DNA of 64,000 nt from Paraburkholderia sp. HP33-1. Lineage in GTDB: Bacteria > Pseudomonadota > Gammaproteobacteria > Burkholderiales > Burkholderiaceae. Below, piece by piece: positions 11,952 to 14,417 of the stretch. Location: contig NZ_JAJEJR010000003.1 of assembly GCF_021390595.1 (NCBI RefSeq), forward strand, positions 124,001 to 188,000. Reading direction: 5' to 3'. The number at the start of each line of letters is the position of its first letter. The stretch's first letter is position 1. A program made the translations under genes and the position numbers. Under the pieces are notes generated by a model that was given only the letters and a program-made list of their open reading frames with translations, made no database searches and was not told the DNA's origin.

Positions 11952-12668
11952 ATGTCACAACATGTCTTCATCGTCGGTGGCTCTTCCGGAATTGGCCTGG
12001 CTACAGCCCGGCGGCTTCTGGATCAGGGATACACGGTTACGATTGCTGGGCGCGATTCTGCGAAACTGGCCAAAGCAAAAGTCGCGTTGCGCGGCACCGC
12101 CAATACGCTGAGATTCGATGCATCCGATGTATCGACCATCGTCAGTGGGTTCGCTGAGATTGGCGCGTTGGATCATCTGGTTCTCGCGCTGGGCAGTAGC
12201 AAGGGCGGAGGCCCATTTTCTGCCGTTAGTCTCGACGAGGTCCGCATGGGATTCGATGAGAAAGTGTTTCCTCATTTCGCATGTGCTCAGGCGGCCCTTT
12301 CGTCGATTGCGAAAACTGGAAGTATCACTTTTCTCTCTGCGGTGTCGGCACACTGGGCCATGCCCGGCTCAGCGGGCCTTGGTGCAGCGAATGCAGCGAT
12401 TGCCGCGATCGTGCCGATCCTGGCGATGGAACTACGGCCGTTGCGGATCAACGCGGTTTCGCCTGGTGTCATTGATACGCCGTGGTGGGACTTTCTCTCA
12501 GCGAACGATAGGGAATCGGTTTTTGCCGGTTATGTGGCAAAAACGCCGGTAGGACGAATTGGCCAGCCTGACGACGTTGCCCGCGCGATCGAGTTTCTGA
12601 TTTCGAACTCGTTCATGTCCGGGCAGACCATCACATGCGACGGGGGAATTGGTCTAGGTTCGTCATGA
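11952..12668 (+). CDS. SDR-fold protein with degenerate active site
   Basis: The 238-residue protein has the SDR cofactor loop (FIVGGSSGIGLATARRLL) and the C-terminal segments INAVSPGVIDTPWW and GQTITCDGGIG. The catalytic Tyr-x3-Lys is absent: the aligned stretch reads LGAANAAIA, so Tyr is Leu and Lys is Asn. It may bind NAD(P) without ordinary dehydrogenase chemistry. The frame is open far upstream, but homology and the divergent promoter fix the ATG at 11952. It is the likely target of the XRE regulator at 10862-11728. Confidence 0.88.
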   Translation: MSQHVFIVGGSSGIGLATARRLLDQGYTVTIAGRDSAKLAKAKVALRGTANTLRFDASDVSTIVSGFAEIGALDHLVLALGSSKGGGPFSAVSLDEVRMGFDEKVFPHFACAQAALSSIAKTGSITFLSAVSAHWAMPGSAGLGAANAAIAAIVPILAMELRPLRINAVSPGVIDTPWWDFLSANDRESVFAGYVAKTPVGRIGQPDDVARAIEFLISNSFMSGQTITCDGGIGLGSS

Positions 12669-12934
12669 TGCTGGAGATTGACAGCGATCACCAGTCGGCT
12701 CGAAGAACCCTGTCGCAGTCACGTCGTTGCAATCATCAAAGAAGAGGCCGCAGCCATCGAGCGGCAACTGCCTCATTTGCTTGCAGACGCACGAAGGGCA
12801 GCTGCCTGAGGGAAGCCGACACTTGGACGGCCGTCCGGAAGCGCTAGTCAACGGCCGCAGATGGCCGCCCCCCTGCCTGCAATCATCAGCACTGCGAAAG
12901 TCGTCACAGTGAACCCGTGGCGAAGCTGAGAATC

Positions 12935-13020
12935 TGGAGCAGGTGGCAGGATTCCAACCCGCGTGGACATTTGTCGCTGGCTTTGCAGACCAGTGCCTTC
13001 AAGCTCTCGGCCACACCTGC
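12935..13020 (-). tRNA. Serine-type tRNA with GCA (Cys) anticodon
   Basis: The reverse strand folds as a full cloverleaf with encoded CCA (86 bases). The acceptor GCAGGTG/CACCTGC is perfect over 7 pairs. The D-arm GCC...GGC and the TG at 8-9 match serine tRNAs. The anticodon stem CTGGT/GCCAG carries loop CTGCAAA, so the anticodon is GCA, which reads Cys codons. A 14-base variable arm (stem GAC/GTC) is of class II size. The T-arm is GCGGG/CCTGC with loop TTGGAAT. The usual G19:C56 contact appears as C19 and G56, a matched swap. A -10-like TAGATT lies 12 bases upstream (13032-13037). Body identity is Ser-like; function is inferred. Confidence 0.72.
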
Positions 13021-13041
13021 GTCGCTCCTACAATCTACGCA

Positions 13042-13397
13042 ACCCACCTTACGATTCGACCCCACCGACGTGCGCTTCCGCACAAATCCTCGGTTGAATC
13101 GTCCAGGCGGCTCTCGTGATTGGCTGCAAGAGTCACCGCGAAAGCTTGCGGACGACCTTCTTTGCGGCGCGCATAGGTCTGCTCCTTCAGCGAAGCAGTG
13201 GCCCAAGTGTCCGATTCTCGATATAGACGAACGACGCATCATGGTGGAACCGCGCCCCACACCTCCGGCTCAGCTGGTTGAGGAGTTGTCCGGTGCCTGC
13301 CGAGGTCGGCATGACGGTGAACATGCTGCGGCGCGTGCCGGCAGACGTATCGAAGACAACAGGGCCCGCTCAGGCAAAACTCCCGACGCCCTGCCAA
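13042..13397. other. No recognisable gene
   Basis: About 355 bases between the tRNA and the end of the aldo/keto reductase gene. Open frames exist on both strands, but none has a ribosome site or family features. I see no repeat or RNA structure that stands out. Confidence 0.5.
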
Positions 13398-14417
13398 TCA
13401 TGCGGCGACGCGATCCCGGTCATGGAAGCGTTGCATCCAGTGGGGGAATGGCACTGGCGTCTCGGAGACCCTATCGAGGCGCGCGAGCTGTTCAGAGGTC
13501 AGCAGGAGATTCTGCGCATCGAGGTTGAGCGCGAGCTGCTCGGACGTGCGGGCTCCGACGATGACGGAAGTGATCTGCTCGCGTGCGAGTAACCAGGCCA
13601 GTGCGACTTGAGCTGGCATAGCCACCAGTTCGCCGGCGACTTCACGCAATACTGCGAGAATCGGCTCGGCCCTGACTGCGTCAACCGGAGGAAAGTCGAG
13701 CTTCGTACGGCGCCCGGTAGCTTCGCCTTTCTCAGAGTACTTGCCGCTCAGGTAGCCGCCTGCCAGCGGGCTCCAGACCAGAAGGCCCATCAAATTTGTC
13801 GCCGCAACAGGCATGATTTCGTGCTCGATGTCGCGGCTCGTCAGCGAGTAGTGCACCTGATTGCTCGCGACATGTACACGATCGGTGCGGGAGGTTATGC
13901 CGAAGGCACGCTCGAGCTCGGCAGCGCTGAAATTGCACACGCCGATGTGGCGGACCTTGCCCTGCGTAACGAGGTCGTCCAGGACACGAAGCGTTTCGTC
14001 GAGTGGAACAAGCGCGTCACGATCATGCAACTGGAAAAGGTCGATGTGATCGCGACCGATTCTCTTCAGACTGGTCTCAACTGAACGCATGATATGCGAG
14101 CGGCCCAGCCCCACTTCGTTATGGCCGGGGCCGGTGCGCAATCGGACCTTGGTGGCGACGAGCATTCGCGTTTCGTCAAGGCCCAGCGCGTTTAGCACCT
14201 GCCCCACGACTTCTTCGGAGCGGCCCTGTGAATAGGCGTCCGCCGTGTCGATCAGGTTGACGCCGCGCTCCACGGCCGTCGCAACGAGGCGGGTGGCCTG
14301 ATCGCTGTCCAGTCCGGCAATGTCGCCCCAGATGCCCGACCCTGCGCCGAACGTCATTGTGCCCAGGCTCAGTCGTGAGACGCGCAGGCCGGTTCTACCA
14401 AGCGTGCTGTATTCCAT
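13398..14417 (-). CDS. Aldo/keto reductase
   Basis: A 339-residue TIM-barrel oxidoreductase of the aldo/keto reductase superfamily. The catalytic tetrad is visible: Asp57 and Tyr62 in LIDTADAYSQGRSEEVV, Lys90 in LVATKVRL, and His131 in DLFQLHDRD. The NADPH-binding C-terminal part (SVIVGARTSEQLALNL) is intact. It reduces aldehydes or ketones with NADPH in the cytoplasm; the natural substrate is unknown. It is followed upstream on the same strand by the NmrA-like gene at 14498, which may share its transcript. Confidence 0.93.
   Translation of the reverse strand: MEYSTLGRTGLRVSRLSLGTMTFGAGSGIWGDIAGLDSDQATRLVATAVERGVNLIDTADAYSQGRSEEVVGQVLNALGLDETRMLVATKVRLRTGPGHNEVGLGRSHIMRSVETSLKRIGRDHIDLFQLHDRDALVPLDETLRVLDDLVTQGKVRHIGVCNFSAAELERAFGITSRTDRVHVASNQVHYSLTSRDIEHEIMPVAATNLMGLLVWSPLAGGYLSGKYSEKGEATGRRTKLDFPPVDAVRAEPILAVLREVAGELVAMPAQVALAWLLAREQITSVIVGARTSEQLALNLDAQNLLLTSEQLARLDRVSETPVPFPHWMQRFHDRDRVAA

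Follow-up and report, generated by a model that had tools for sequence, protein, structure and literature searches.

In the present study, we analyzed a 64,000-nt stretch of the Paraburkholderia sp. HP33-1 genome (contig NZ_JAJEJR010000003.1, positions 124,001 to 188,000; hereafter the window) and identified on its minus strand an unusual tRNA gene that combines a long variable arm, the anticodon GCA, the discriminator U73 and an elbow pair in which G19-C56 is inverted to C19-G56. The tRNA observed here is real and conserved. On balance, sequence comparison suggests that it is probably a tRNA-Cys of a long-armed, phage-style kind that has spread horizontally and whose elbow pair is inverted. 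It would represent a lone module of ~300 bp present in few Paraburkholderia genomes and akin to the tRNA-Cys genes found in tRNA arrays of viral contigs. The tRNA is predicted to be transcribed and to be charged mainly with Cys by the cysteinyl-tRNA synthetase (CysRS) of the host, and it would serve as a spare tRNA that reads UGU/UGC as Cys.

Identification of a long-armed tRNA with a GCA anticodon

The only tRNA called by ARAGORN in the window was located at 12935-13020 on the minus strand and had the anticodon GCA, and the Rfam tRNA model matched 12938-13020 at 50.1 bits (cut-off 29 bits). Structure parsing revealed that all pairs of the acceptor stem (7/7), the anticodon stem (5/5) and the T-stem (5/5) are formed, which gives an acceptor/T domain of 7/5, and that CCA is encoded in the gene behind a U at position 73. 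Thus, the original prediction, made from the sequence alone, of a complete long-armed tRNA with CCA and GCA was well supported. The minimum-energy fold of this tRNA taken alone was not better than those of shuffled sequences (z = -0.64; 47 of 200 shuffles were equally good), so that the support for the tRNA comes from comparison.

It had also been proposed to check whether the genome contains a normal tRNA-Cys. The genome (7.35 Mb in four contigs, with 66 tRNA matches; the window is part of the 1.15-Mb contig C3) indeed carries an ordinary class I tRNA-Cys on contig C1, near 2421882-2421952, whose anticodon loop CTGCAAA is the same as that of the window tRNA. The window tRNA gene is therefore an extra copy.

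The inverted elbow pair

In the elbow of tRNAs, positions 19 and 56 form a conserved tertiary pair, G19-C56. The D-region of the window tRNA, GCCGAGAGCTTGAAGGC, contains G18 and C19 in our numbering, and its T-loop, TTGGAAT, places a G at position 56. We aligned ten tRNAs (alignment A2), including the three known copies of the module, five viral tRNA-Cys, one tRNA-Cys of a mycobacterial plasmid and one tRNA with a CAU anticodon: the 19-56 pair was G-C in seven of them and C-G in three, without any mismatch. In a larger set of 383 distinct tRNA calls, biased because the loci had been fetched by similarity or pattern, 380 T-arms could be parsed; 371 of them have C at position 56, four have G, three T and two A. 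Three of the G56 calls are the tRNAs of the module, and the fourth, an ARAGORN call in P. ribeironis, is probably false. The paired 19-56 swap noticed initially was thus read again in the window tRNA and was found unchanged in two further species. The three inverted tRNAs belong to one family and may therefore go back to a single inversion event.

The C19-G56 pair would keep the contact between the D-loop and the T-loop and hence the L shape, but would alter the bases seen by enzymes that read the elbow, such as TruB. According to PMC7912444, C56-G19 belongs to the continuous stack from which the elbow is built, and TruB accepts the T-arm sequence GUUYRANYC; G56 of the window tRNA does not match the Y of this sequence. 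The inversion is predicted to affect modification, processing and the binding of the ribosome. In the accessible parts of the literature searched, which did not cover subscription papers, neither a natural C19-G56 swap nor this tRNA was described; PMC10944890 writes 'C19-G56' when describing an A-site tRNA, but this is apparently a mere order of naming. The natural occurrence of C19-G56 in three genomes offers a ready test of whether base identity or pairing and stacking matters at the elbow, and also suits the question of which modifying and processing enzymes require G19-C56.

Two related roles could be considered for such an extra tRNA, and we regard each of them as rather improbable. In one, a mobile 'elbow-inverted' Cys tRNA would evade enzymes that read G19/C56 (modifying enzymes, tRNA-cutting toxins or defence enzymes) and would still be usable by CysRS and the ribosome. 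If so, it would provide a protected channel for Cys decoding, perhaps switched on via the inverted repeat upstream of the gene. In the other, it would be a conditional spare Cys tRNA whose inverted elbow leaves it intact when the ordinary tRNA-Cys is depleted by a tRNA-cutting toxin or a defence enzyme. The latter possibility is consistent with the redundancy to a normal tRNA-Cys, the mobility and the alteration at the elbow, but both tRNAs have the same anticodon loop, which would offer no escape from an anticodon nuclease.

Distribution and conservation of the module

A search of 144 Paraburkholderia genomes (up to five candidates scored per genome) detected the module, i.e. the tRNA together with its flanks, in three genomes including that of the window. 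The other two carriers are P. translucens MMS20-SJTN17 and P. ribeironis STM 7296, and both have C19/G56, GCA and U73. Thus, looking for the C19/G56 pair in relatives, as had been suggested, recovered the same pair and a preserved fold in two further Paraburkholderia species. An additional 77 genomes of the genus had short matches only, nearly all of which scored 46.4 bits and fell in positions 163-207 of the query; the short-match loci that were scanned proved to be tRNA-Ser(UGA).

Pattern searches, all of which require exact D-arm letters so that distant relatives could escape, gave a similar picture. When a C19/G56 pattern with any anticodon was run against 84,980 species (a collection that may omit the record of the window genome itself), matches were found in P. 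translucens, P. ribeironis and Heliobacterium chlorum; the last one was rejected because ARAGORN calls no tRNA there. The C19/G56 pattern had no match in viral contigs. Of 398 genomes of the family, a sample without P. ribeironis, 11 had a match to a pattern combining GCA with G56; two of these matches, one in the genome of the window and one in P. translucens, correspond to this tRNA. The long-arm GCA pattern (any base at 19, G or C at 56) matched only the window genome among 399 genomes of the order, which did not include P. translucens and P. ribeironis. At the phylum level, 10 of 398 sampled genomes had matches at E 1e-5 (at most two candidates scored per genome), and only that of the window genome spans the tRNA. 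Distant blastn searches with the tRNA for copies of the module on plasmids or phages returned other tRNAs or partial matches only.

Among the three copies, the identity of the tRNA is 89-94%, compared with 70-74% in the 50 nt directly upstream, 75-83% in the leader further up and 77-81% in the 60 columns downstream; further out it is 38-63%. All stem differences among the copies keep pairing, and the variable arms are 14, 13 and 13 nt long with 3-4 pairs. The original prediction had argued for selection rather than decay on the basis of the paired 19-56 change. This view is strengthened by the presence of the tRNA in three species, by stem changes that stay paired and by an identity of 89-94% in the tRNA versus 70-83% in its flanks.

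Probable horizontal movement of the module

The genes next to the module differ among the three carriers. In P. translucens, they encode an MFS transporter and an enolase-family enzyme, and in P. ribeironis a LysR regulator and a frame of 184 aa without Pfam match; a 'tRNA-His' call beside the P. ribeironis module overlaps the LysR-type frame and was taken as false. The P. translucens module is located in an interval of ~445 bp whose flanks match contig C2 of the window genome at 94-95%, where no tRNA was called and ~9.7 kb is present instead. The same flanks match a site of P. ribeironis, also free of tRNA, at 85-89%. The flanks of the window module itself have only short partial matches in the genomes of P. 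translucens and P. ribeironis.

The degree of divergence points in the same direction. At two synthetase-like gene regions, the window genome is 95.2% and 95.6% identical to P. translucens, whereas the modules are 79% identical; for P. ribeironis, the corresponding values are 84.8% and 90.7%, and 85% for the module. This disagreement between module and genome divergence suggests that the module moved horizontally, which is the simplest account of the sequences. In that case, one unusual tRNA gene would be able to pass from one bacterium to another in the form of a small module. No linked mobility gene was recognized by Pfam among the nearest frames (10 in the window and five in the two relatives; 2 of these 15 had no Pfam match).

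With regard to the P. translucens site, the region of the window genome that carries the ~9.7 kb is G000:C2:379000-391800 (L118), and its counterpart in P. ribeironis (L117) contains a partial repeat of the end of the MFS gene. This site is possibly an insertion hot spot.

Cysteine or serine identity

According to Table 1 of PMC9976931, the bacterial determinants of Cys identity are U73, G2-C71, C3-G70 and GCA, and the same paper names U73 and GCA as the major ones in E. coli. For Ser, the table lists G73, C72, G2-C71, R4-Y69, C11-G24, G30-C40 and a large arm. The window tRNA has the anticodon bases G34, C35 and A36 as well as U73, the latter shared by all three homologues and overlooked by the original prediction. 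In the biased set of 383 calls mentioned above, N73 as assigned by structure was U in all 29 tRNA-Cys, and among 40 tRNA-Ser it was G in 34, U in three and A in one (two were unparsed). The arms of four parsed host tRNA-Ser are 18, 19, 22 and 19 nt long and have 6-7 pairs, a range that does not include the arm of the window family.

The original prediction assigned a serine type, proposing that seryl-tRNA synthetase (SerRS) charges the tRNA and Ser is placed at UGU/UGC as programmed mistranslation; tolerated mistranslation or a dual Ser/Cys identity could be added as variants. The presence of C72, R4-Y69, C11-G24 and G30-C40 agrees with this proposal, as do the highest body identities once its own family is set aside, which belong to tRNA-Ser by a narrow margin, and the U73 of three of the 40 tRNA-Ser calls. 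However, the tRNA has U73 in place of G73 and C2-G71 in place of G2-C71, and its arm is 4-9 nt shorter than those of the four host tRNA-Ser, with about half of their pairs. In addition, a long-armed GCA/U73 tRNA is the sole listed tRNA-Cys in eight viral stretches (see below). Thus, the serine type is not supported with respect to identity elements, and Ser mistranslation, once the leading reading, was demoted by U73, C2-G71 and the short arm to a rival that we consider unlikely, although the least unlikely of those discussed here. As for the serine-like look described earlier, the likeness of the body was confirmed (best tRNA-Ser 0.815), and the likeness of the variable arm and the D-arm had been overstated: the D-arm of the window tRNA also occurs in the tRNA-Cys of a Mycobacterium plasmid and of viral contigs. 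From the sequence elements, charging with Cys appears more likely, and Ser or dual charging is possible.

Body identity was compared over 65 positions, excluding the arm, the anticodon and N73. The mean identity to the window tRNA was 0.724 for the 40 tRNA-Ser and 0.710 for the 29 tRNA-Cys (its own family included). These values are nearly equal, and therefore the body does not decide the identity. Canonical bacterial tRNA-Ser has the D-arm, C11-G24, G30-C40 and a similar body in common with the window tRNA, but differs in G73, G2-C71 and an arm of 18-22 nt in the host versus U73, C2-G71 and 13-14 nt. The ordinary tRNA-Cys of the host resembles it in the loop CTGCAAA and U73, and differs in its 4-nt variable loop, G2-C71, C3-G70 and C56. 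A class I variable loop of 4-5 nt is found neither in the window family (13-14 nt) nor in six viral GCA/U73 tRNAs. Each of the three carrier genomes has one strong match to PF01406 (CysRS), and a duplicated CysRS as partner of the tRNA was rejected, since the remaining PF01406 matches are weak and lie in other open frames.

We also considered a Sec-type tRNA or an allo-tRNA. The selC* tRNA-Cys with a novel cloverleaf and allo-tRNAs reportedly have an 8/4 or 9/3 acceptor domain. They too carry a long arm on a tRNA of Cys or Ser type that falls outside the usual class, but the acceptor domain of the window tRNA is 7/5 and not extended to 12-13 bp (8/5, 8/4 or 9/3), and this assignment was rejected. 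Hybrid-identity mistranslating bacterial tRNAs, as presented in PMC11415595, are likewise extra tRNAs that blend features of two identities. In those tRNAs the anticodon and the charging disagree, whereas in the window tRNA both U73 and the anticodon are those of Cys and the body is ambiguous.

Long-armed tRNAs in viral contigs

A pattern composed of GCA and the same D-arm matched 29 viral stretches. In eight of these loci, which represent six distinct tRNAs, the arm is 12-16 nt long, and U73 and G19/C56 are present in every case. The eight stretches contain 9-29 tRNA genes each according to ARAGORN, and the long-armed GCA tRNA is the only tRNA-Cys listed in any of them, although the listings cover the fetched stretches and the whole records may hold more; five of the eight also list a tRNA-Ser. 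The six distinct viral tRNA-Cys (IMG/VR L069, L071, L073, L082, L084 and L092) share with the window tRNA a 7-bp acceptor stem, a 5-bp T-stem, GCA, U73 and the D-arm GCCGAG...AAGGC, which was fixed by the pattern, and their arms of 12-16 nt have stems of 2-4 pairs. The arm of L084 is equal to that of the window tRNA in length and stem offsets. On the other hand, all of them differ from the window tRNA in having G19/C56, a tRNA-array setting and other stem sequences.

The presence of such tRNAs in viral contigs indicates that a long-armed GCA tRNA need not be a Ser tRNA, and suggests by analogy that the Paraburkholderia module may have originated from phages. It also means that long variable arms extend beyond Ser, Leu, Tyr and Sec tRNAs. 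The titles and abstract openings of the literature searched contained no mention of the viral long-armed tRNA-Cys group. Long arms were also observed on some viral tRNAs called Gly.

Several observations weigh against a phage-style tRNA-Cys. First, the Cys determinants G2-C71 and C3-G70, both present in the ordinary tRNA-Cys of the host, are replaced by C2-G71 and A3-U70 in the window tRNA, and by our reading the G15:G48 pair described for E. coli is absent. Second, according to PMC9976931, G73 is moderately important in E. coli and Ser identity comes primarily from the variable arm; U73 is moreover compatible with Ser, as the three tRNA-Ser calls that carry it, all from viral contigs, demonstrate, and the best tRNA-Cys outside the family reaches a body identity of 0.800, below the best tRNA-Ser. 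Third, the viral search pattern fixed the D-arm and GCA, so that only the arm, U73 and the array context are independent, and G19/C56 in all long-armed viral tRNA-Cys leaves viral descent as something we infer. Finally, a consensus scan of 12700-13400 detected no sigma-70-like promoter and no terminator. Together with the patchy occurrence (3/144 genomes) and the redundancy, this last result would also fit a functionless relic that is decaying, left by a mobile element or by the copying of an attachment site. We consider such a relic improbable: none of the three diverged copies has lost pairing in its stems, all of them keep C19/G56, and conservation within the module is highest in the tRNA. 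A horizontally spread tRNA-Cys remains the reading that we favor.

Other unusual tRNAs were noticed in viral sequences. Nine loci (L069, L070, L071, L072, L076, L083, L084, L085 and L094) contain tRNAs called as Thr, Ile(UAU), Lys or Glu with variable regions of 12-27 nt; these look like class I tRNAs with added long arms, and some are maybe parsing artefacts. Two loci (L094 and L079) have a tRNA-Ser(UGA) with U73 in place of G73 and an encoded CCA. Xanthomonas phage XacN1 (L065:1501-1586) has an annotated tRNA-Gly (UCC, U73) with a 14-nt variable region and a D-arm of the same type; aligned along its full length, this tRNA-Gly shares 72% identity with the window tRNA.

Upstream hairpin and genomic context

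The features of the module and its neighbourhood are listed in Table 1.

Table 1. Coordinates of the tRNA gene, its structural elements and surrounding features in the window.
Feature	Position	Strand	Remarks
tRNA gene	12935..13020	minus	86 nt, GCA anticodon, encoded CCA; ARAGORN, Rfam and structure parsing
Discriminator U73	12938..12938	minus	G73 in the four parsed host tRNA-Ser; structure parsing
G56, T-loop	12955..12955	minus	The remaining seven tRNAs of alignment A2 have C; coordinate counted from the sequence
Variable arm CGACAAATGTCCAC	12963..12976	minus	14 nt, stem of 3-4 pairs; structure parsing
Anticodon GCA	12984..12986	minus	Loop CTGCAAA, identical to that of the ordinary host tRNA-Cys
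C19, D-loop	13003..13003	minus	The remaining seven tRNAs of alignment A2 have G; coordinate counted from the sequence
Upstream inverted repeat/hairpin	13046..13106	minus	61 nt; arms ACGATTC...GAATCGT, inner GTGCG...CGCAC; conserved
Conserved module	12871..13195	minus	P. translucens match 12871-13195 at 79%; P. ribeironis match 12884-13171 at 85%
Short-chain dehydrogenase (SDR) family gene	11970..12668	plus	Neighbour; Pfam; start position provisional
Aldo/keto reductase family gene	13398..14417	minus	Neighbour; Pfam

The 3' arm of the upstream hairpin stops ~30 nt ahead of the tRNA, and the folding z-scores of this hairpin across the three species are -3.3, -5.3 and -3.2. No Rfam match was obtained for 13021-13230 up to E 5, and beyond the three modules no copy of the inverted repeat was listed in the genomes of the genus (E 0.001, few candidates scored per genome). 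From its sequence, it is possible that the hairpin acts as an operator or an RNA leader. Its conservation could also accommodate a non-ribosomal use, in which the tRNA would supply a tRNA-dependent enzyme of peptide or cell-wall synthesis with Cys or Ser, or would act as a regulatory RNA, and the altered elbow could be imagined to weaken ribosomal contacts. This use appears very unlikely to us, as no biosynthetic partner was recognized among the nearest genes tested in the three carriers (distant partners were not searched for).

Outside the window, the genome contains another class II tRNA with a CAU anticodon and A73 (called 'tRNA-Met' by ARAGORN), located on the minus strand at G000:C2:2266920-2267007 (L035:121-208). 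It is near-invariant in ten Paraburkholderia loci; together with its flanks it matches 121 of 141 genomes of the genus at E 0.001, some of them partly, and nine Cupriavidus plasmid records match it over the full length at 85-92%. Extra copies of its 3' half suggest integration sites.
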